Assembly (NCBI RefSeq): GCF_009834545.1
Contig: NZ_CP019427.1
Span: 5,403,501-5,467,500, forward strand
Source of the DNA: Pseudomonas sp. S04
GTDB taxonomy: Bacteria; Pseudomonadota; Gammaproteobacteria; Pseudomonadales; Pseudomonadaceae
Length of the DNA stretch: 64,000 bases
Direction of reading: 5' to 3'
How positions within the stretch are numbered: position 1 is the first letter of the stretch; the number at the start of each line of letters is the position of its first letter. The notes beneath the pieces were generated by a model, which ran no database searches, was not told the origin of the DNA, and saw nothing but the letters and a program-made list of their open reading frames with translations. The position numbers and the translations under genes were made by a program. Below, piece after piece: positions 4,784-25,360 of the stretch.

Positions 4784-6694
4784 CTAACGGGTTATCCCGT
4801 GCTTGCGCAGCTTTCTATAGAGGGTATTGCGACTGACCCCCAACTGTTCGGCCGCATGGGTCATGTGCCAGCGCTGTTGTTCCAGGGCATTGAGCAAGGC
4901 CAGGCGCTCGGCATCGTCGAGTGGAAACTCGACCGGCGCCGGTGCACTGCTCGATGCCGGACGAGCCTGGCGAATCATCGCCGGCAAGTCCTCCACACCG
5001 ATGCGCCCCTCTTCACACAAGGCTGCCAAGGTCCGCAGCACCGTGCGCAACTGCCGCACGTTGCCTGGCCAGGCAAACCCGAGCAACGCCTGGCGCGCCG
5101 GAGCATCAATCAACACCGCCTCGCCACCCGCCTCTTCGGCCAACAGAAAGTCCAGCAACTGGGATTTATCACTGCGCTCACGCAGGGGCGGCAAACCTAC
5201 CTCCAGGCCATTGAGCCGGTAATACAGGTCTTCGCGAAAGCTGCCATCCTGCACCCGCTCCAGCAAGTCACGGTGAGTGGCGCTGATGATCCGCACGTTG
5301 ACCGCCTGCGGCTCGCCACCAATCGGCACCACCAGCCGGTCCTCAAGTACCCGTAACAAGCGGGTTTGCAGGGCCAGGGGCATGTCGCCGATTTCATCCA
5401 GGAACAAAGTCCCGCCATCGGCCTGCTGCAGCTTGCCGCGCATGCCTTCCTTGCGTGCGCCGGTGAAACTGCCGCCGCGATAGCCGAACAGCTCGCTCTC
5501 GATCAGGCTCTCAGGAATGGCCGCGCAATTGAGCGCGACAAAGGCTTTGTCGGCACGCTGGCTGGCCTGGTGCACGGCCTTGGCAAAGGCCTCTTTGCCT
5601 GAACCGGTCTCGCCATTGATCAACAGCGGCACATCACGTTCGAACACCCGCAGGGCTTTGCGAAAATCCGCCTGCAAACCTTCATCGCCCAGGCAAATAC
5701 CGGCCAACCGCGGCCGCTCGGCAACCCTCTGCGCCTGCGCAACCGGGGCGGGCACACTGCGCGGCTGACCGCGCAACAGGGCAAACAAGGCCCGGCCGTC
5801 GCGGGTGCGCAGTGGCCAACTGGCGCTGGCGTTGACGCTGGCGCGAGACATCAGTTGATCCAGCGAACAGTCGAAAAAGGCCTCCACCGGCTTGCCCACC
5901 AGGCCGCCGCGAATATGCCCCAGCAGGTTCAACGCGCTCTGGTTGACCGCACTGATGCGCCCTTCCCCGTCAAATGCCAGCAGCCCTTCGCTGAACAACC
6001 CGACCGACTCGGCCTGCAGGTGAAAGCGCAGCAACCACTGGTTGTCGAAGTGGCGCAGGAAGTAGCAGCTCTCGATCATTTTCGCCGAGAGATTGACCAG
6101 CGCCATGGTGTGGAACTGGCTCTGGCGCGAAACGTCATGGCGCGCCGAGGAAACGTCGAGCACCGCCAGCAGCTCGCCATGGGGGTCGAACACCGGGCTG
6201 GCCGAACAGGTCAGGCCCGTGTGGCGGCCGCGAAAGTGTTCATCCTGGTGGATGGTCAGCGCCTGGCGCTCCACCAGGCAGGTGCCGATTCCGTTGGTGC
6301 CTTCGCAGGCCTCACTCCAGTCGGCGCCGAGCCACAGGCCGGCGCGCTCGAAGATCTTGCGCTCGGTGGACGCCGTGACACAGTTGAGAATCACCCCACG
6401 GGCATCGGTCAACAGCACCGCGTGCCCGGCACCGCTGAGTTGCTGATGCAGGCTGTTCATTTCTCCGCCGGCAATCTGCAGCACCTGCTGCAGGCGCTCG
6501 CGACTTTCCAGCACCCGACCATGCTCCAGCACCGTGGGCGCGATGGCCAATGCCGGATCGAGATGATAGTCCTCCAGGCATCGCAGCCAGGAACGGGCGA
6601 TGGACGGATCGCTGCCCGGACCGTGCAACTGGTTCTTGCCCTGGGTCACGGTCAAGACCTGTTGGGCATGGCGACTTAAATGGTTGCTGTGCAT
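4784..6694 (-). CDS. eatR: Sigma-54-dependent activator of ethanolamine catabolism (EatR/AcoR type)
   Basis: The 636-residue protein has the AcoR/AcoX layout: an N-terminal GAF-like sensor (about 80-190), a PAS-like region (about 225-290), an AAA+ domain with Walker A GETGSGKE at 361-368, the sigma-54 contact loop GSFTGA at 408-413 and Walker B GGTLFLDEIGDM at 427-438, and a C-terminal Fis-type helix-turn-helix ending RNTLYRKLRKHGI. There is no receiver domain, so it should sense a small molecule. It is divergent from the aldehyde dehydrogenase/eut genes, which have a -24/-12 promoter, matching P. aeruginosa EatR (PA4021). The loop has Ser where GAFTGA has Ala. The gene symbol is by synteny and architecture. 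Confidence 0.85.
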   Translation of the reverse strand: MHSNHLSRHAQQVLTVTQGKNQLHGPGSDPSIARSWLRCLEDYHLDPALAIAPTVLEHGRVLESRERLQQVLQIAGGEMNSLHQQLSGAGHAVLLTDARGVILNCVTASTERKIFERAGLWLGADWSEACEGTNGIGTCLVERQALTIHQDEHFRGRHTGLTCSASPVFDPHGELLAVLDVSSARHDVSRQSQFHTMALVNLSAKMIESCYFLRHFDNQWLLRFHLQAESVGLFSEGLLAFDGEGRISAVNQSALNLLGHIRGGLVGKPVEAFFDCSLDQLMSRASVNASASWPLRTRDGRALFALLRGQPRSVPAPVAQAQRVAERPRLAGICLGDEGLQADFRKALRVFERDVPLLINGETGSGKEAFAKAVHQASQRADKAFVALNCAAIPESLIESELFGYRGGSFTGARKEGMRGKLQQADGGTLFLDEIGDMPLALQTRLLRVLEDRLVVPIGGEPQAVNVRIISATHRDLLERVQDGSFREDLYYRLNGLEVGLPPLRERSDKSQLLDFLLAEEAGGEAVLIDAPARQALLGFAWPGNVRQLRTVLRTLAALCEEGRIGVEDLPAMIRQARPASSSAPAPVEFPLDDAERLALLNALEQQRWHMTHAAEQLGVSRNTLYRKLRKHGITR

Positions 6695-6855
6695 TTCTTA
6701 TTGTTCTCCCCGAGGGTCAGGTCCGCAGAACGGTCGTAACCCCCGTGTCCCCTATCTTGTGCCTGGTTCAGGCGAGTGCTTCGCCCTCTCATGCAGCCGA
6801 GCATCCTCCAGCCCGGCGCGCATTGCAATGCCAGCGAGACCGACCGGTCACGCGC

Positions 6856-6884
6856 TGTGCCACAAACGGTACAAAGTGTCACAC
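6856..6884. promoter_or_regulatory. Candidate upstream activator sites (two 9-bp palindromes)
   Basis: TGTGCCACA at 6856-6864 and GTGTCACAC at 6876-6884 are each palindromic around one central base. Their centres are 20 bp apart, about two helical turns, so both would face the same side of the DNA. They lie about 110-140 bp upstream of the predicted sigma-54 transcription start, the usual place for enhancer-binding protein sites. Binding by EatR is an inference. Confidence 0.5.
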
Positions 6885-6969
6885 GCCCCGTATCGCATCT
6901 GGCACAGCCTGCAAGCAAGGCCCCGCCGCCGACTGCGCAAACCCTTGATTTACAGGCACCACAAGGCAC

Positions 6970-7052: not shown

Positions 7053-8573
7053 ATGCGTTACGCTCACCCCGGTACTGAAGGCGCTATCGTTTCGTTCAAA
7101 AGCAAATACGGTAACTACATCGGCGGCGAGTTCGTCGCGCCTGTCAAAGGCCAGTACTTCACCAACACCTCGCCGGTCAACGGCCAACCGATTGCCGAAT
7201 TCCCCCGCTCCACGGCCGAAGACATCGAAAAAGCCCTGGACGCGGCCCACGCCGCGGCCGATGCCTGGGGCAAGACCTCGGTCCAGGACCGCTCCCTGGT
7301 GCTGTTGAAAATCGCCGATCGCATCGAGCAGAACCTCGAAGTGCTGGCAATCACCGAATCCTGGGACAACGGCAAGGCCGTGCGCGAAACCCTGAACGCC
7401 GACATCCCGCTGGCAGCGGATCACTTCCGCTACTACGCCGGCTGCATCCGCGCGCAGGAAGGCAGCTCTGCGGAAATCAACGAACACACCGCCGCCTATC
7501 ACTTCCACGAACCGCTGGGCGTGGTCGGCCAGATCATCCCGTGGAACTTCCCGATCCTGATGGCTGCCTGGAAACTCGCGCCGGCCCTGGCTGCCGGTAA
7601 CTGCGTGGTGCTCAAGCCGGCCGAACAAACGCCGCTGGGCATCAGCGTGCTGCTGGAACTGATCGGCGACCTGCTGCCACCGGGCGTGTTGAACGTGGTG
7701 CAAGGGTTCGGCAAAGAAGCCGGCGAGGCCCTGGCCACCAGCAAGCGCATCGCCAAGATCGCCTTCACCGGCTCGACCCCGGTCGGCTCGCACATCATGA
7801 AATGCGCCGCCGAAAACATCATTCCGTCGACCGTGGAACTGGGCGGCAAGTCGCCGAACATCTTCTTCGCCGACATCATGCAAGCCGAAGAATCGTTCAT
7901 CGAAAAAGCCGCCGAAGGCCTGGTGCTGGCGTTCTTCAACCAGGGTGAAGTCTGCACCTGCCCGTCTCGCGCCCTGGTGCAAGAGTCGATCTACGACGAT
8001 TTCATGAAAGTCGTGATGAAGAAGGTCCTGCAAATCAAGCGCGGCGACCCGCTCGACACCGACACCATGGTCGGCGCCCAGGCGTCCGAGCAGCAATTCG
8101 ACAAAATTCTCTCCTACCTGGAAATCGCCAAGGGCGAAGGCGCCGAGCTGCTGACCGGTGGCAAGGTGGAAAAACTCGAGGGCAACCTGGCGACCGGCTA
8201 TTACATCCAGCCGACCCTGCTCAAGGGCACCAACAAAATGCGCGTGTTCCAGGAAGAAATCTTCGGCCCAGTGGTGAGCATCACCACCTTCAAGGACGAA
8301 GCCGAAGCCCTGGCCATTGCCAACGACACCGAGTTCGGCCTCGGTGCCGGTCTCTGGACCCGCGACATCAACCGCGCCTACCGCATGGGCCGAGCGATCA
8401 AGGCCGGTCGCGTGTGGACCAACTGCTACCACCTGTACCCGGCGCACGCCGCGTTCGGTGGCTACAAGAAGTCCGGCGTCGGCCGTGAAACCCACAAGAT
8501 GATGCTCGATCACTACCAACAGACCAAAAACCTGCTGGTGAGCTACGACATCAACCCGCTGGGCTTCTTCTGA
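7053..8573 (+). CDS. exaC: NAD-dependent (acet)aldehyde dehydrogenase, ExaC type
   Basis: A 506-residue member of the aldehyde dehydrogenase superfamily. It has the NAD-binding [20 protein letters not shown] segment, the FTGSTPVG turn, the catalytic Glu262 in VELGGKSPN and the nucleophile Cys301 in [11 protein letters not shown]. Length and sequence fit the ExaC/AldB branch. In this cluster it would oxidise the acetaldehyde released by EutBC to acetate. The start at 7053 is supported by AAGGAG at 7038-7043. It is the first gene after the sigma-54 promoter; the operon continues after a 187-bp gap containing a GC-rich hairpin. Ethanol oxidation is a possible second role, since ExaC proteins serve quinoprotein ethanol oxidation in some pseudomonads. 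Confidence 0.92.
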
Positions 8574-13909: not shown

Positions 13910-14722
13910 ATGGGCCTGCTCAGCACCTGGCGTCGCCAACGCACCCTGGCCAAGCACCCCGTTGCCGATGAAACCTGGCAGCGGGTCCGTCAGCACCTGA
14001 GTTTTCTCGACGGCCTGAGCGAGGCCGAGGACCAATGGCTACGCGAGTCGGCCGTGCTGTTCCTGCAGGACAAACACCTGACCTGCCTGCCCGGTGTCGA
14101 ACTGCACCAGGAACAACGCCTGCTGCTCGCCGCCCAGGCCCAGTTGCCGCTGCTGCACCTGGGCGATCTGAACTGGTACCAGGGTTTCCATGAGATCGTG
14201 CTGTACCCCGACGACTTCCTCAGCCCGCAGCGCCATCGCGATGCCAGTGGCGTGGAGCATGAGTGGGACGGCGAACACAGCGGTGAAGCCTGGCAGCAAG
14301 GGCCGATCATCCTGGCCTGGCCGGGAGTGATGGCCAGTGGTGGCTGGGAAGGTTACAACCTGGTGATCCACGAACTGGCGCACAAGCTCGACATGCTCAA
14401 CGGTGACGCCAACGGCCTGCCGCCGCTGCACAGTGACATGCGGGTCTCGGACTGGGCACAGGTGATGCAACACGCCTACGACGACCTCAACCGCCAGCTC
14501 GACCACAACCCCGATGCCGACACGCCGATCGACCCCTACGCCGCGGAAAACCCTGCCGAGTTCTTCGCCGTCACCAGCGAATACTTCTTCAGCGCCCCGG
14601 ATTTGCTGCACGGCAGTTATCCACAGGTCTATCAGCAACTGCAGCTGTTCTACCGCCAGGATCCCCTGGCAAGGCTTGCGCATTTGCAAGCCGAACATCC
14701 GGCGTATCAGCCACACGACTAA
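13910..14722 (+). CDS. mtfA: MtfA-family zinc-dependent peptidase (M90)
   Basis: The 270-residue protein has the zinc site HELAHKLD with His154, Glu155 and His158 and the MtfA context NLVIHELAHKLDMLNGDANG. Downstream, NPAEFFAVTSEYFF provides the expected acidic third ligand region. E. coli MtfA is an aminopeptidase that binds the repressor Mlc and so influences glucose PTS expression; pseudomonads lack that glucose PTS, so the partner here is likely different. The start lies 6 bp after the dedA stop. The sequence has no signal peptide and should be cytosolic. Confidence 0.88.
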   Translation: MGLLSTWRRQRTLAKHPVADETWQRVRQHLSFLDGLSEAEDQWLRESAVLFLQDKHLTCLPGVELHQEQRLLLAAQAQLPLLHLGDLNWYQGFHEIVLYPDDFLSPQRHRDASGVEHEWDGEHSGEAWQQGPIILAWPGVMASGGWEGYNLVIHELAHKLDMLNGDANGLPPLHSDMRVSDWAQVMQHAYDDLNRQLDHNPDADTPIDPYAAENPAEFFAVTSEYFFSAPDLLHGSYPQVYQQLQLFYRQDPLARLAHLQAEHPAYQPHD

Positions 14723-15588: not shown

Positions 15589-16338
15589 ATGAAAAAACAC
15601 AAATGCGGCCCACGCTTCAAGGCACTCCTCAAGGAGGTGAAAATCACCCCCTCGGAGTTTGCTACCTTCTGCAACGTCGAGCCCCAGCACATCAACAACT
15701 GGTACATCCGCGGCGTGCCCTACCCCCGCGTTGAAGAAATCGCCCGCCTGCTGAGCGTCAACAGCCAATGGCTGATCAACGGCGAAGGCCCCAAGCATCC
15801 CGTCATCGGCCATGCTCCCGAGCCGACTATCCCCCTTCTGGACACCCGGGAGTCCCGCGAGCAATACCAGGTCAGTGTCGACTCCCCAGACATCGAACTC
15901 CCGCTCTACAAAGAACTGCCCAAAGCCCTCGGCTCCAGCGACACCCATGTCGTCGCAATCCCCGGCGAAGCCGTTCGCCTGCCCCGCCACTACCTGGAGA
16001 ACCTGGAAGTCAAACCCATCCATGCCATCTGCGTGCCCATGGTCGGCGACAGCATGTCGGAGAGAATCGAAGACGGCTCGACCCTGGCCATCGACCGCAG
16101 CCTGACCCAGATCATCGACGGCCAGATCTACGCCCTCCAGCACGCCGGCATGCTGCGCATCAAATACCTGCACCGCCTCCCCGGCGGCGCCCTGCGCTTG
16201 CGCAGCCACAACAGCAGTGGCTATCCGGACGAAATCTTCAGCGCCGAACAAATCAAAAAACAGGATATCGACGTCCTCGGCTGGGTGTTCTGGTGGTCCA
16301 CCCTCAACAAACAGCGCCCGCCAGTACCCTTTGCATGA
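15589..16338 (+). CDS. Orphan phage-type repressor with S24 (LexA/CI-like) peptidase domain
   Basis: A 249-residue protein with an N-terminal Cro/CI-like helix-turn-helix (about residues 10-65) and a C-terminal S24 domain. The serine nucleophile is Ser155 in VPMVGDSMSERIEDGS, and the general-base lysine is Lys192 in LRIKYLHRL. The layout resembles PrtR-type repressors that control pyocins or prophages and respond to RecA. The linker, roughly 70-115, has no Ala-Gly or Cys-Gly dipeptide, the usual self-cleavage site. No phage or pyocin genes are in this window, so its target is unknown. It follows the ppa terminator and lies just upstream of the repeat-bounded block. Confidence 0.88.
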   Translation: MKKHKCGPRFKALLKEVKITPSEFATFCNVEPQHINNWYIRGVPYPRVEEIARLLSVNSQWLINGEGPKHPVIGHAPEPTIPLLDTRESREQYQVSVDSPDIELPLYKELPKALGSSDTHVVAIPGEAVRLPRHYLENLEVKPIHAICVPMVGDSMSERIEDGSTLAIDRSLTQIIDGQIYALQHAGMLRIKYLHRLPGGALRLRSHNSSGYPDEIFSAEQIKKQDIDVLGWVFWWSTLNKQRPPVPFA

Positions 16339-16455
16339 CCACCGCAACGCCCTGCAATACACATCGCACTGGGAATTCCCCAAAAAAATCAGTATGCTGC
16401 GCCCCACATTTGCATCGACCCGCCCCGCGCCGGTCCGATCGCACCGACAAGGCAG

Positions 16456-16536
16456 ATGACTTTCTCGCCAAGTCCCACAGCCGGACGCAAGATCCGGGTG
16501 TACGTTTTGAAGGCTGGTACGGTTTACCAAAAATAA
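16456..16536 (+). CDS. Small ORF, 26 residues, basic peptide
   Basis: ATG at 16456, TAA at 16534-16536. The peptide starts MTFSPSPTAGRK and ends RVYVLKAGTVYQK; it is basic and has no membrane segment. AAGG lies three bases before the ATG, closer than ideal. It fits neatly before the terminator at 16555. I do not recognise it; it could be a leader peptide or a chance ORF inside a small RNA. Confidence 0.3.
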   Translation: MTFSPSPTAGRKIRVYVLKAGTVYQK

Positions 16537-16554
16537 ACCAAGCCAGTCCCCGAG

Positions 16555-16578
16555 AAGCCGGCCACAAGCCGGCTTTTT
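16555..16578 (+). terminator. Intrinsic terminator, left copy
   Basis: AAGCCGGC and GCCGGCTT form an 8-bp stem around a CACAA loop, followed by T residues. From 16557 on it is part of the 28-bp direct repeat. The extra A-T pairs of the stem exist only in this copy, suggesting this is the complete native terminator. Confidence 0.9.
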
Positions 16579-16584
16579 AATGCC
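16557..16584. repeat. 28-bp direct repeat, left boundary of the ATPase/protease block
   Basis: A 28-bp sequence starting GCCGGCCACAAGCCGGC and ending TTTTTAATGCC is repeated without mismatch at 20585-20612. The flanking bases differ (A/T before, T/C after), so 28 bp is the exact match. The copies are 4,028 bp apart and enclose only the ietA/ietS-like genes and their leader. The repeat covers a transcription terminator, a place where elements can insert without damage. Confidence 0.95.
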
Positions 16585-16989
16585 TGAAAACCACGCAGAA
16601 TGCGTGCCGGATACGAAACGCCATCTTTGACCCACACCAAAGCGCTGGGTTAGCCACTCCATCCATTGACTCCATTACGTTGACACACTCGACCCGTCGC
16701 CATATCAGCGTGACCACCAAGCTCGCTTATATTGACCACCTACTTGCTCGAGGCTTGAGCTGTACGCACCAAGGTAGCGGTCGGTGCTCGACCCATAGCT
16801 GCCGGCGGCGATATGCAAAATCGGCCTAGAGTAGTCGTTGGGCAGCTATGAGATAACTGCTTTTTCAGAATGGGCTTCGACGAATGGCAGCCCGGCACCG
16901 GATCACTGCCACGCAACAGGAATATTGATCCTATCAAGGTCTATTCACCTCTAAGCGGTTACACTACTGGCTTCGAAAGGTTGAACACT
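16585..16989 (+). promoter_or_regulatory. Non-coding leader of the ATPase/protease block
   Basis: About 400 bases without a convincing gene. TGACCACC occurs twice, at 16711-16718 and 16733-16740, 22 bp apart, on either side of TATATT (16728-16733), a possible -10. These may be operator half-sites. The base composition is visibly less GC-rich than the flanking core genes. No integrase remnant was recognised. Confidence 0.35.
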
Positions 16990-17973
16990 ATGGCTAGCAG
17001 CGAACATCTGAAAGCGCTTCTGCGCTCACACATCAAGGGGGATGATGCCCACTTCTTGTCCGTCGCTATGCAGCTGGCGGCACATGAAGCAAAGCAGGGG
17101 CATGGCAAGCTCGCGGAAGATCTGCGAGCCCTCATTGACTCGGCCAAGAAAAACCGCATGCCATTGGCCTCTCCGGTTCCGATCGGTCAGCCACGAGGCG
17201 AGCTGGGTAACCTGGTCTCTGCTGTTCTACCTCGCACTCGATTTTCGGAAATGATCCTGGATGAGGCCACGCACAATCGCTTGGCCCGGATCATCAATGA
17301 GCAGCGTAACTTCGAGAAAATCCGCGCTCACGGCCTATCACCACGTCGCAAGCTCCTACTTGTTGGCCCACCCGGCACCGGCAAGACAATGACGGCCTCC
17401 GCACTTGCTGGCGAACTAGGCATTCCTTTATACGCCGTTCGCCTGGACAGCCTTATCACCAAGTTCATGGGCGAGACTGCATCGAAGCTTCGCCAGATCT
17501 TTGATGCCATCCGCGATACACGTGGTATCTACTTTTTTGACGAGTTCGACGCTATCGGCTCGCAACGCGGCCTGTCCAACGACGTGGGCGAGATCCGTCG
17601 CGTCCTGAACAGCTTCCTGCAGATGATTGAGCAGGATCAGTCCAACAGCCTGATCATCGCGGCCACGAACCATCCGGAAATTCTTGACTACGCCTTGTTC
17701 CGCCGCTTCGATGATGTTATCGAATATGGGCTCCCTAATCAGGAACAAACAAAGGCTGCGCTGAAGAGTCGGCTCGTTAATTACTCGAAGTCGATTCGCA
17801 GCTGGGAAAAGCTCTGCAAGGTGGCAGAGGGCCTCAGCTACGCTGAGCTTGCAAAGGCAGCAGACGATGCGATCAAGGATGCGATCATTAATGACCGCCC
17901 ACAGGTCGACATCAAGGACGTGGAAAAGCATCTTGAGGAACGAAAGGCTTTCCATGGGAGACAACGTTCGTAA
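16990..17973 (+). CDS. ietA: AAA+ ATPase, IetA-like (defence/incompatibility)
   Basis: A 327-residue AAA+ ATPase. After a helical N-terminal region (about 1-75) come Walker A GPPGTGKT (126-133), Walker B YFFDEFDAIG with Asp184-Glu185, sensor-1 IIAATNHPEILDYALFRRFD, and a small C-terminal lid. The core resembles FtsH/spastin-type ATPases that feed proteases. It is paired with a subtilisin-like protease gene 17 bp downstream, the two-gene order of IetAS, first described as a plasmid-incompatibility locus in Agrobacterium and later reported as an anti-phage system. I chose ATG 16990 (MASSEHLK); an upstream in-frame start at 16870 would add 40 residues that look like leader sequence. Codon usage is more mixed than in neighbours. 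The symbol is tentative. Confidence 0.8.
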   Translation: MASSEHLKALLRSHIKGDDAHFLSVAMQLAAHEAKQGHGKLAEDLRALIDSAKKNRMPLASPVPIGQPRGELGNLVSAVLPRTRFSEMILDEATHNRLARIINEQRNFEKIRAHGLSPRRKLLLVGPPGTGKTMTASALAGELGIPLYAVRLDSLITKFMGETASKLRQIFDAIRDTRGIYFFDEFDAIGSQRGLSNDVGEIRRVLNSFLQMIEQDQSNSLIIAATNHPEILDYALFRRFDDVIEYGLPNQEQTKAALKSRLVNYSKSIRSWEKLCKVAEGLSYAELAKAADDAIKDAIINDRPQVDIKDVEKHLEERKAFHGRQRS

Positions 17974-17990
17974 GTTAGTAGAGCCTCTAG

Positions 17991-20489
17991 ATGACGGAAC
18001 CAAAGGCAGGACAGCGACCACATTTTCACTTTCATGGAACGGGGCAACCAGAAAGGTTTCGCTCCACAGCATCCGCATCAAGGGACCCGCGTTTTCCGCC
18101 GCAGGACCGAGCCAGACACGGTGCGGCGTTGCTTGGCCAATTGCGATCCGTTGGCTCGCAGATGACCGAGGCCATCAATCTTCAGCGCCAATCAGGTCGA
18201 GATAGCGGGTTTGGCCTGCAGATCGAATTCAAAAGCTTCCCCGGATTCGAATTGGCCTTCGAGGGTCTTGCTCGTGGAGCGCAGCGCATTGAGTTACTAA
18301 ACGTGCGCCGAGACCGAGAAAACCATACCGACATGGCAACGGTTTTCGTTCCCGATGGCCAGCTTAAGGCTTTTGAGAGCCTCATTAGCCAGTACCTGGA
18401 GGCGAATACGTCCAAGGGGCAACCACGCAATGCACCGCTGCTCAACCCGATTCAGGAGATCCGGTTTGCCGCGTTCAATGCACTCTGGACCGATGATCCC
18501 TCGGTACTTCCTGCGAGCGATACCGACACGATATGGTGGGAATTCTGGTTGCCGGTCCGGCAAGATCGCGAGGCCGTACTCAATCGATTCCGAGCCATTG
18601 CAGAAGCCTCTGGCTTCATCACTTCAGAGAAAACTCTCCACTTCCCTGAGCGCACGGTGTTGAACGTCTTCGCATCGAAAGCGGCAATTACCCGATCGAT
18701 TCTGCTCCTCAATGAAGTCGCGGAAATTCGAAGGGCAAAGGAAACCGCAGAGTTCTTCGACGCTATGCCCGCAACCGAGCAGCACGCGTGGGTCGATGAG
18801 TTACTCGGGCGCACCACTGCTGGCCACGAAGACTGCGTGCGCCTCTGCCTCCTCGACACCGGAGTGAACCCAGGACACCCGCTTCTAGCCTCGCATGTTG
18901 GCCTTAACGACCTGTACAGCGTCGATCCAGCGTGGGGTGTCCAGGACGACGTGGGCCACGGTACTGGTCTGGCCGGGCTCGCCATTTATGGCGATCTCGT
19001 AGACCCTCTGTCGTCACAAAGCCCCATCACAATCCAGCACCGGGTCGAGTCAGTGAAGCTTCTGCAAGCCGCCGTAGGTAACCAGAAAGAACCCTATGGT
19101 GCTCTCACCATGTCGGCAGTTGCCTTGCCGGAAATCGCCCAGCCGAACGTGGATCGGGTCTTCAGCATGGCCATTACTAGCACCGATGCTCGCGATCGCG
19201 GTCGCCCGTCTGCTTGGTCCGCCGCAGTAGATGGATTGGCTTCCGATGCTCTCGGCGAGCGGGCGAATCCACGACTGATTGTGGTTTCGGCCGGTAACGC
19301 AGATCAGAATCAGGCGCTGGACTACCCCAACAGCAATGCCACCGACGGTATCCATGACCCTGGCCAATCCTGGAACGCTCTATGCGTAGGGGCGTACACA
19401 CAAAAAGTCACTATCGATCCGCCCAATACCACTCTGCAGCCAGTGGCTCCTGCAGGAAGCCTGAGCCCTTACAGCACTACTTCGTTGACCTGGCAGCGCA
19501 CCGCCTGGCCACTTAAGCCTGATGTGATGTTCGAGGGCGGCAATCTGGTTAAGGATCAGTTGGCCGCCTACAACTATCCCTCGGTCTCCCTACTGACAAC
19601 CTGCCACACTCCTACTGTACGGCTGTTCGACCTCACTAGGGCCACCAGCGCGGCCTCTGCGTTGGCAGCTCGCATGGCTGTACAGATTTTGTCCAGATAC
19701 CCGGACTTCTGGCCAGAGACTGTTCGAGCGCTAATGGTCCACTCTGCTGAGTGGACCGAACGCATGAAGGACGACTTCCTGGGCGCTGGGTCGAAAGGCG
19801 ATTACGAGCGGCTAGTGAAAACCTGCGGCTTTGGGGTACCCGACTTAGGGCGAGCACTGTGGAGCGCCGGCGACTCACTCACCTTGGTCGTTGAGGACGA
19901 GCTGCAACCGTTCATGAAGCCTATCAAGGGCAATCCCACTGCTCGCGATATGCATCTTCATGATCTGCCATGGCCGAAACAAGAACTACTTGATCTTGGC
20001 AACACCAACGTAGAGATGCGGGTGACGCTTTCCTACTTTGTTGAACCCAACCCTGGAGTTGTCGAACGCGGCATCAAAGGTCGTTACAGGTACGAATCTC
20101 ACGGCCTTAGGTTCGATGTCAGCCGCCCAACGGAAGAAAAGACTCAGTTCCGGCAGCGTATCAACAAACGTGCTCGCGACGAAGAAGACGGTATCTATCA
20201 GGGGGGCGGAGCAGATCCGAACTGGCTGCTAGGAACCCAGACGCGGCACCGAGGTTCACTGCACTCGGACATCTGGCGCGGCACTGCCGCTGAATTGGCC
20301 GACCGCAGCATGATCGGCATCTACCCGGCCCTCGGTTGGTGGAAGACCCTGCTTAAACAGGAGCGATACAATGATCGTGTCCGGTACAGCCTCGTTGTCT
20401 CAATCAAGACGGAGCAAACCGCCATCGATCTCTATGCAGCGATCCAGAACGTGATCGTGGCTAAAACAGCGATTGTGAACCAAGGGTAA
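17991..20489 (+). CDS. ietS: Subtilisin-like S8 serine protease, IetS-like
   Basis: An 832-residue protein with no signal peptide, so probably cytosolic, unlike secreted subtilases. A long N-terminal region (about 1-275) precedes the S8 domain, whose triad can be read as Asp289 in LCLLDTGVN, His323 in VGHGTGLAG and Ser553 in RATSAASALAA; Asn436 in VVSAGNAD is the oxyanion residue. A region after about 620 ends the protein. The serine motif ATSAAS departs from the usual GTSMA. Domain order and partner ATPase match IetS; the ATPase may recognise or unfold a target that the protease cuts, but mechanism is inferred. No strong Shine-Dalgarno is seen before ATG 17991, so translational coupling with the ATPase gene is likely. 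Confidence 0.8.
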   Translation: MTEPKAGQRPHFHFHGTGQPERFRSTASASRDPRFPPQDRARHGAALLGQLRSVGSQMTEAINLQRQSGRDSGFGLQIEFKSFPGFELAFEGLARGAQRIELLNVRRDRENHTDMATVFVPDGQLKAFESLISQYLEANTSKGQPRNAPLLNPIQEIRFAAFNALWTDDPSVLPASDTDTIWWEFWLPVRQDREAVLNRFRAIAEASGFITSEKTLHFPERTVLNVFASKAAITRSILLLNEVAEIRRAKETAEFFDAMPATEQHAWVDELLGRTTAGHEDCVRLCLLDTGVNPGHPLLASHVGLNDLYSVDPAWGVQDDVGHGTGLAGLAIYGDLVDPLSSQSPITIQHRVESVKLLQAAVGNQKEPYGALTMSAVALPEIAQPNVDRVFSMAITSTDARDRGRPSAWSAAVDGLASDALGERANPRLIVVSAGNADQNQALDYPNSNATDGIHDPGQSWNALCVGAYTQKVTIDPPNTTLQPVAPAGSLSPYSTTSLTWQRTAWPLKPDVMFEGGNLVKDQLAAYNYPSVSLLTTCHTPTVRLFDLTRATSAASALAARMAVQILSRYPDFWPETVRALMVHSAEWTERMKDDFLGAGSKGDYERLVKTCGFGVPDLGRALWSAGDSLTLVVEDELQPFMKPIKGNPTARDMHLHDLPWPKQELLDLGNTNVEMRVTLSYFVEPNPGVVERGIKGRYRYESHGLRFDVSRPTEEKTQFRQRINKRARDEEDGIYQGGGADPNWLLGTQTRHRGSLHSDIWRGTAAELADRSMIGIYPALGWWKTLLKQERYNDRVRYSLVVSIKTEQTAIDLYAAIQNVIVAKTAIVNQG

Positions 20490-20500
20490 ATCAACTCGGA

Positions 20501-20544
20501 CGTTGCCCAGTCGTGCTCGGCCAAGCCGACATGATTGGGCAACG
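20501..20544 (+). terminator. Long hairpin after the protease gene
   Basis: CGTTGCCCAGTCGTG (20501-20515) and CATGATTGGGCAACG (20530-20544) form a 15-bp RNA stem with two G-U pairs; the loop holds a further CGGC/GCCG mini-stem. It starts 11 bases after the protease stop. Without a U-tract, it is either a non-canonical terminator or an mRNA-stabilising end. Confidence 0.6.
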
Positions 20545-20584
20545 CTACATTGGAAATCGGCAGAAGTACGTAGAAGCTATAAAT

Positions 20585-20612
20585 GCCGGCCACAAGCCGG
20601 CTTTTTAATGCC
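20585..20612. repeat. 28-bp direct repeat, right boundary of the ATPase/protease block
   Basis: Perfect copy of 16557-16584. Here the hairpin is reduced to the six-base GCCGGC arms because the base before it is T rather than A. It lies 23 bp beyond the end of the nitrilase gene, which is read on the other strand, so the inserted block neatly separates two intact transcription units. Confidence 0.95.
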
Positions 20613-20635: not shown

Positions 20636-21568
20636 TCACCCCTCCCCAAACACCACCGCCTGCATCGGTGCTGTATTCACCTTCAACTGAAACACCTCCG
20701 GCCGCGAATAGTGCCCGCACACATCAAAATCAAGATTACTGGCCCGGCCAATGGACAAATCGATGTCCGCATACAGGATGGTTTCCTGGTCAAACACTGG
20801 CCCTGCCAGCACTTCGCCGGTCGGGCTGACGATCATGCTGCCGCCGTGCATGATGTAGTCGGCGTCCTGGGCCTGGAGGTTGAAGTCTTCGCGGTAGCTG
20901 GCCGGGTATTCGCCCAGGGTGATGGCCTGGCAGGCGGACAGGACGTGGACCCGGCCTTCGAGGGCGATGTGCACCATCGATGAGGCCCAGGTTGGGCGGT
21001 CGTCGGCGGTGGGCGCGCAGTAGATTTCAGTGCCTTGGGCGTACATGGCCTGGCGCAGGGCGGGCATGTAGTTTTCCCAGCAGATGACGCTGCCCAGGCG
21101 GCCGAAGGGGGTGTCCACCGGGGCGATGGTCGAGCCATCGCCGAAGCCCCAGATGATCCGCTCCTGGCCGGTCGGCATCAGTTTGCGGTGATACCCGGCA
21201 ATGCCTTGGCCCGGGGCCAGGGTCACGGCGGTGCAATACAACGTGCGGCCTAGGCGCTCGATGATGCCCATGACCACATGCAGGCCGGTTTCATTCGCCA
21301 CTTCGCTGAGACGGGCCAGTTCCGGGCCGTCGAGGGTGACTGCGCCGTCCATGTAGCGCTCGAAGTGCGCGCGGCCGGTGGCATTGCGGCTGCCGATGAC
21401 GGTACCGAAGGCGGCGCCCTTGGGGTAGCCGCCGAGGAAGGCCTCGGGGAACACCGCAAGCGTGGCGCCCTGGGCGGCGGCCTGGCGGATCAGGCCGGCC
21501 GCTTTTTCGGCGCTCAGTTGCGGCTCGAACGGAATGGAAGACGCTTGCACTACAGCTGCTTTAAACAT
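20636..21568 (-). CDS. Nitrilase-family carbon-nitrogen hydrolase
   Basis: A 310-residue member of the carbon-nitrogen hydrolase superfamily, branch 1 (nitrilases). The catalytic Glu-Lys-Cys triad is visible: Glu42 in VFPEAFLGGYPKG, Lys129 in YHRKLMPTGQER and Cys163 in VICWENYMP. The CWEN context is typical of true nitrilases and cyanide hydratases, which convert nitriles to acids and ammonia. The downstream position behind a transporter gene, under a divergent LysR regulator, suggests a catabolic unit for an organic nitrile. The transporter is broken here, but the enzyme appears intact. Confidence 0.9.
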   Translation of the reverse strand: MFKAAVVQASSIPFEPQLSAEKAAGLIRQAAAQGATLAVFPEAFLGGYPKGAAFGTVIGSRNATGRAHFERYMDGAVTLDGPELARLSEVANETGLHVVMGIIERLGRTLYCTAVTLAPGQGIAGYHRKLMPTGQERIIWGFGDGSTIAPVDTPFGRLGSVICWENYMPALRQAMYAQGTEIYCAPTADDRPTWASSMVHIALEGRVHVLSACQAITLGEYPASYREDFNLQAQDADYIMHGGSMIVSPTGEVLAGPVFDQETILYADIDLSIGRASNLDFDVCGHYSRPEVFQLKVNTAPMQAVVFGEG

Positions 21569-25117: not shown

Positions 25118-25360
25118 ATGGCCCGCAAAAAAGCTGCACTGGATTTCGAACAATCCCTCGCCGACCTGCAAACGCTGGTTGAGCGTCTGGAGAACGGCGA
25201 GTTGTCGCTGGAAGACTCGCTGACCGCCTTCGAACAAGGCATCGGCCTGACCCGCGATTGCCAGGCCGCACTGGCACAGGCCGAGCAGAAGGTCCAGGTG
25301 CTGCTGGAGCGCGATGGCGAACTGGCCGAGGCGCCTTTCGACGCGGATCAACCAGAATGA
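25118..25360 (+). CDS. xseB: Exodeoxyribonuclease VII small subunit
   Basis: XseB is the small helical subunit of the single-strand exonuclease VII, several copies of which bind each XseA chain. The 80-residue protein begins [42 protein letters not shown], which is the family signature, and has the normal length. Its TGA overlaps the ATG of ispA by 3 bp, and the ispA-dxs pair follows, as in most gamma-proteobacteria. Confidence 0.96.

Follow-up and report, generated by a model that had tools for sequence, protein, structure and literature searches.

An IetAS gene pair between two integrase attachment cores at an RNA-element terminator of Pseudomonas sp. S04

The ietA–ietS pair and its family

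The window analysed here is a stretch of 64,000 bp from Pseudomonas sp. S04, and coordinates for which no other locus is named refer to this window and, with the exception of one nitrilase-family gene, to its forward strand. Two adjacent and co-oriented genes, namely, ietA for an AAA+ ATPase (16990–17973; putative antitoxin-type partner) and ietS for a subtilisin-like protease (17991–20489; putative toxin-type partner), are enclosed by two copies of a 28-bp repeat. The island including its repeats extends from 16557 to 20612, and the range from 16990 to 20489 comprises the genes only. Its chromosomal neighbours, both located outside the island, are a gene for an S24-peptidase regulator on the left (15589–16338; Peptidase_S24, 1.6e-18) and the nitrilase-family gene on the right (20636–21568, reverse strand; CN_hydrolase, 1.1e-51). 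The list of ORFs of at least 80 aa contains no further convincing gene beyond ietA/ietS between the two repeats, and no integrase. Downstream of ietS an inverted repeat (GTTGCCCA/TGGGCAAC) was read from the sequence at 20502–20543.

The ietA gene comes first and is separated from ietS by 17 bp, a gap that has precisely the same length in six relatives (L054, L055, L057, L058, L060, L061) and measures 19 bp in L063. The ORF containing ietA ranges from 16870 to 17973, but the most likely start is the ATG at 16990, because the aligned IetA sequences begin with MAS or MAT at this position. The Walker A motif GPPGTGKT (residues 126–133) and the Walker B residues D184/E185 are invariant in the alignment of 11 IetA sequences. 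In the 832-aa IetS protein (Peptidase_S8, E = 1.3e-54 in the profile search), D289, H323 and S553 as well as N436, a residue of the oxyanion-hole type, are invariant in all 66 aligned sequences. The Walker motifs, the catalytic triad and the 17-bp gap to a subtilisin-like protease gene had all been proposed in an earlier note on this DNA and are confirmed. In the P. putida plasmid locus L221 a DUF6088-annotated gene (6295–6900) is located immediately 5' of ietA, and G118 (L084) harbors an ORF of equal length (7353–7958) directly 5' of its ietA.

The PADLOC profile search agrees with the earlier identification of the pair as IetA/IetS: IetA matches the model PDLC02196 (1.2e-78) and IetS the model PDLC02198 (1.1e-29), for which five tested IetS relatives score between 1e-33 and 1e-39. 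Both genes occur in the order of the system, with an intact Walker A/B and an intact Asp-His-Ser triad. The NCBIfam equivalogs of the anti-phage proteins IteA/IteS, which the pair resembles by profile, are matched far below their cut-offs (210.6 of 510 and 79.8 of 900 bits). Judged by these profiles, the pair is a member of IetAS in the PADLOC sense that lies outside the NCBI anti-phage equivalog group.

Relatives of IetS are numerous: of 7,999 candidates that were scored, 3,699 reach E ≤ 1e-3, and the nearest is 96% identical. IetS-like matches are present in 29 of 398 Pseudomonas genomes. In 18 of these, the S04 genome included, they are near full length with at least 38% identity; the remaining 11 comprise a partial copy (G095), a remnant (G002) and nine distant subtilases at 26–29%. 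The IetAS pair is accessory in Pseudomonas and not part of the core genome, and ietS is a single-copy gene in S04.

The flanking repeat and the RNA element

The two copies of the repeat (GCCGGCCACAAGCCGGCTTTTTAATGCC; 16557–16584 and 20585–20612) are identical at all 28 positions and spaced by 4,028 bp. Simple arithmetic yields a probability of about 4e-10 for an exact 28-bp repeat within 7.3 kb, so that a chance origin is not to be expected. Further direct repeats that were detected measure 16–19 nt and are 84–89% identical. The G+C content of the block amounts to 0.561 compared with 0.628 in the rest of the window. Among 120 sliding segments of 4 kb, two reach such a low value; the one with the minimum starts at 14501 and overlaps the block. 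The compact repeat-bounded block of the earlier note is thereby substantiated.

The left copy represents the terminator-type hairpin of a conserved, covarying and putatively transcribed RNA element (16400–16579, approximate limits). A query consisting of the S24-peptidase regulator gene and the stretch up to the left core matched 58 of 95 genomes, all of them Pseudomonas (58 of the 59 genomes of this genus). Among 35 sequences of the element, 97.1% of the cells are paired versus 91.4% in shuffles, and 58 cells are changed on both sides versus 16.3. The covariation score is 0.264 versus 0.152 (0 of 500 shuffles as high), and the number of pairs with a both-side change is 11 versus 7.7 (reached by 3 of 500). 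Pairing in slid controls is 25–58%, a comparison that favours the structure over its slid versions, as it was derived from a 28-row subset of the 35 sequences. The stem and the T run of the terminator are identical in 35 of 35 sequences, and the loop differs in three.

No Rfam family matched the RNA element at the gathering threshold, and it is a candidate for a new small-RNA family. PrrF, a small RNA whose locus receives islands in P. aeruginosa (see below), is an Rfam family, and the S04 element differs from it because the window has no Rfam match. One P. aeruginosa record contains a 75-nt match to the 3' part of the element, flanked by a DUF4340 gene on one side and by mandelate racemase–xseB–dxs genes on the other; the window ORF at 25118 presumably encodes XseB. 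In Pseudomonas, a gene for an S24-peptidase regulator often adjoins the element on its left, and a regulatory link is possible.

The docking site, its islands and the spread of IetAS

The exact 26-mer of the core is present in 312 of the 398 Pseudomonas genomes, nearly always once and in two copies in five, and its reversed-pattern control gave zero hits in all rows. This number is an undercount, because the leading A is missing in front of right-hand copies such as that of S04. Two core copies, with up to four mismatches to the 28-mer of the window, were detected in five of 19 other genomes retrieved at length, the five having been chosen since a second copy had already been seen in an earlier match. 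Their spacing ranges from 1.6 kb in G031 over 9.7 kb (G006), 16.0 kb (G055) and 17.3 kb (G009) to about 32 kb in G042. The other 14 genomes have one copy in the stretch examined, which was mostly about 19 kb long (7.5 kb in G021), and in G136 two copies are located 41.4 kb apart.

A P4-type integrase ORF adjoins the core in eight of 34 genomes (G006, G009, G022, G032, G037, G042, G055 and G136), many of the 34 being covered for about 1.5 kb beyond the match and G006 and G022 containing pieces of the integrase only. The domains Arm-DNA-bind_3, Phage_int_M and Phage_integrase are present in three of these integrases. Of the 398 genomes, 57 contain a match to the G055 integrase at E ≤ 1e-100. In 28 of the 30 best places of this integrase, the locus of the query included, the core is found at a distance of 145–175 bp, and the other two lack a core within 1.5 kb. 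This recurrent association identifies the 28-bp core as the attachment site for a family of P4-type integrases, and a docking site at the terminator of the RNA element is well supported. The earlier suggestion of a mobile cargo is borne out and can be sharpened, as the bounding repeat corresponds to this attachment core.

Three of the islands at the core carry restriction genes and have a P4-type integrase at one end (a fragment in G006). The G055 island (C8, 259234–275230) harbors HsdM/S/R, and type I restriction proteins are encoded in those of G042 (C26, 30512–62703) and G006 (C99, 7423–17180). For five of ten island cargo proteins (two each from G042 and G055 and one from G009) no PADLOC match was obtained at 1e-10. 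The insert of 1.6 kb between the cores of G031 (L035, 943–2602) contains a remnant of IS66 and a gene resembling ribbon-helix-helix antitoxins, and no integrase. The PAGI-97B-type islands of P. aeruginosa are a comparable case, since they carry restriction genes and are inserted at the PrrF1/PrrF2 small-RNA locus. They differ in their XerC/D-type recombinase, as described in passages of PMC8373256, from the S04 site with its P4-type integrases and its 28-bp terminator core.

The left arm of the IetAS island (16585–16689) is common to other species and continues the alignments of the RNA element at 90% identity in G005 (to 16687), 85% in G002 (to 16676) and 83% in G055 (to 16637); G035 is also included. 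The arm is thus common to the integrase-bearing G055 island. Both arms of the latter contain the motif TTTGACCCACACC, of which the IetAS island has a single copy in its left arm (16626–16638) and none in the right arm; the comparison of arms did not reveal it in the islands of G009, G031 and G006. Its repetition suggests that TTTGACCCACACC may be an integrase arm site. Beyond ietS, the DNA homology stops at 20540 in G010 and at 20546 in G002. A cognate integrase is missing not only between the repeats but in the host as well, because the best relative of the G055 integrase in a search of the genome is 32% identical. The presence of the core at both ends and the absence of an integrase inside are indicative of a non-autonomous derivative rather than a complete member of the P4-type islands.

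At the same docking site, G002 has the left arm and, after it, three pieces of the IetS region (103, 194 and 53 nt) with 95–96% DNA identity to S04, compared with 72% for the region of the S24 gene, which indicates that the cargo has moved between species and decayed there. G125 exhibits a single core, about 500 bp of other DNA and then the nitrilase gene, documenting that the order of core and nitrilase exists without IetAS. In G179 and G397, whose nitrilase is about 80% identical, core and nitrilase are located on different contigs. No clean empty site was found, G125 included. Within the 398 genomes, the IetS nearest to that of S04 (91% protein identity) belongs to G010 and resides at another locus, where the surroundings yielded dispersed-repeat matches only and no comparable flanking repeat. 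Furthermore, a P4-type integrase ORF is present in the examined flank of 3 of 101 IetAS loci, a set that includes some genomes twice and some short loci. Together with the location in G010, this shows that IetAS uses many vehicles and is not tied to this one.

Function of the cargo and alternative explanations

We consider it probable that the locus is a non-autonomous mini-island of 4.03 kb at an RNA terminator, whose IetAS cargo serves as an addiction/defence switch. This reading starts from what is established, namely, the gene identity, the intact catalytic residues, the borders, the association of the site with an integrase family and the lack of a cognate integrase. It draws in particular on the PADLOC pair order, the invariant catalytic residues, the core repeat, the left arm in common with G055, the decayed G002 copy and the precedents of sgiAT and a mycoplasma system. 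Counted against it are the small number of integrase-linked IetAS loci, the different location of the nearest IetS (G010), the scores far below the NCBI anti-phage cut-offs, the right arm without TTTGACCCACACC and the lack of a clean empty site. Site-specific recombination at the terminator of the Pseudomonas RNA element would have brought the island in, with an integrase that was either lost or always supplied in trans, and the intact IetAS module would be its only cargo. For S04 IetAS, we infer toxicity, neutralisation, trigger and any phage resistance by analogy. Following the precedent of the family, IetS would be a subtilase toxic inside the cell and IetA its neutralising AAA+ partner, an ATP-driven ring that may restrain IetS or its N-terminal region. 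If the island were lost, or if another element or a phage entered the cell, this balance would be upset and IetS would cleave cell proteins, leading to arrest or death of the cell.

The IetA/IetS pair of the Agrobacterium Ti plasmid pTiC58, likewise an ATPase and a subtilase, is reportedly a toxin-antitoxin and incompatibility locus. The S04 IetS is about 40% identical to copies on Agrobacterium plasmids, which may or may not be Ti plasmids, and unlike the pTiC58 locus the S04 pair sits in a chromosomal mini-island. In the sgiAT system of SGI1, S025 is toxic in E. coli and neutralised by S026, and SGI1 is kept better with sgiAT when an IncA/C plasmid is present, according to passages of PMC5006074. 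By this description sgiAT is a two-protein system of the same kind that likewise resides on an integrative island. SGI1 is capable of excision and of mobilisation with IncA/C plasmids, whereas the S04 island comprises 4.03 kb with two genes and no integrase. The AAA-ATPase/subtilisin pair T133/A132 (TA132/3) of Mycoplasma mycoides, in which the protease T133 is toxic in E. coli and neutralised by the ATPase A132, has direct repeats at one region (PMC8562856). Its host is distant, and the passages of this source do not link the repeats to an integrase site. IetAS is also called a toxin-antitoxin system in a passage of PMC8765062. The earlier designation as an IetAS defence system stands with regard to IetAS; "defence" is inherited from the family name only, because the NCBI cut-offs are missed by far and the two relatives whose experiments are described in PMC5006074 and PMC8562856 are toxin-antitoxin systems.

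Two functional alternatives, to each of which we give somewhat less than an even chance, remain close to the mini-island reading. According to the first, the pair primarily mediates anti-phage abortive infection, with IetA sensing a phage replication product and unleashing IetS. The listing of the family as anti-phage by PADLOC and NCBI speaks for it, as do the type I restriction genes at the same attachment site in G055, G042 and G006. Passages of two sources point in the same direction: in a review table (PMC10286901) the entry ietAS appears among phage changes in functional phage proteins, and IetAS on a P. aeruginosa Pf prophage is associated with resistance (PMC11878078). The equivalog cut-offs are nevertheless far from reached, and the mechanism of IetAS is called unknown in passages of PMC11878078 and PMC11267873.

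The second alternative, similarly tentative, is an addiction or incompatibility module that primarily stabilises mobile DNA, any effects on phages being side effects. IetS-like sequences occur in 490 of 72,556 plasmid records, 342 of the 490 being predicted conjugative; among 50,697 phage records there are 2. Within 60 rows sampled from these plasmid records, the identity to IetS is about 40% across almost its full length in seven Agrobacterium rows and 34% in an eighth. S04 IetAS is likely nearer to the plasmid toxin-antitoxin branch than to the NCBI anti-phage group. The stabilisation of SGI1 by sgiAT is in accordance with this function (PMC5006074). On the other hand, the S04 copy is chromosomal in an element without an integrase to excise it, and the decayed G002 copy shows that its loss is tolerated there.

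An unlikely extension would be a minimal satellite of two att cores, one arm and IetAS, mobilised in trans by integrases of the same terminator. IetAS would then guard the site: once an integrase that enters the cell had excised or displaced the island, the cell would be killed or arrested, and plasmid-style incompatibility would have been transferred to a chromosomal docking site. It is very improbable that the repeats are coincidental Pseudomonas terminators and that the block arrived by homologous recombination. Terminators with such a hairpin are common in the genus, and the G010 pair lacks a comparable flanking repeat, but the exact 26-mer is single in nearly all genomes that have it, its reversed control is zero, and the core accompanies 28 of the 30 best integrase homologues. 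A housekeeping quality-control protease with its unfoldase is scarcely credible despite the relationship of the AAA module to FtsH, PAN and p97, and an FtsH-type identity was rejected, as the AAA+ protein reaches 115 of the 600 bits of the FtsH_fam cut-off and the pair occurs in 29 of 398 genomes, so that neither contrary outcome named in the earlier note, a housekeeping FtsH-like match or conservation in most Pseudomonas, was observed.

IetAS itself is a known system, and the novelty lies in its vehicle: open-licence PMC papers yielded no earlier report of the docking site that this non-autonomous mini-island occupies. With two genes between identical attachment cores, the natural copy is a clean locus for deletion, transfer or excision. 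One integrase family uses the terminator of a structured RNA element that matches no Rfam family, and the islands at this terminator carry restriction genes and, in S04, IetAS. The docking site is present across much of Pseudomonas and thus represents a place to seek further defence cargo.
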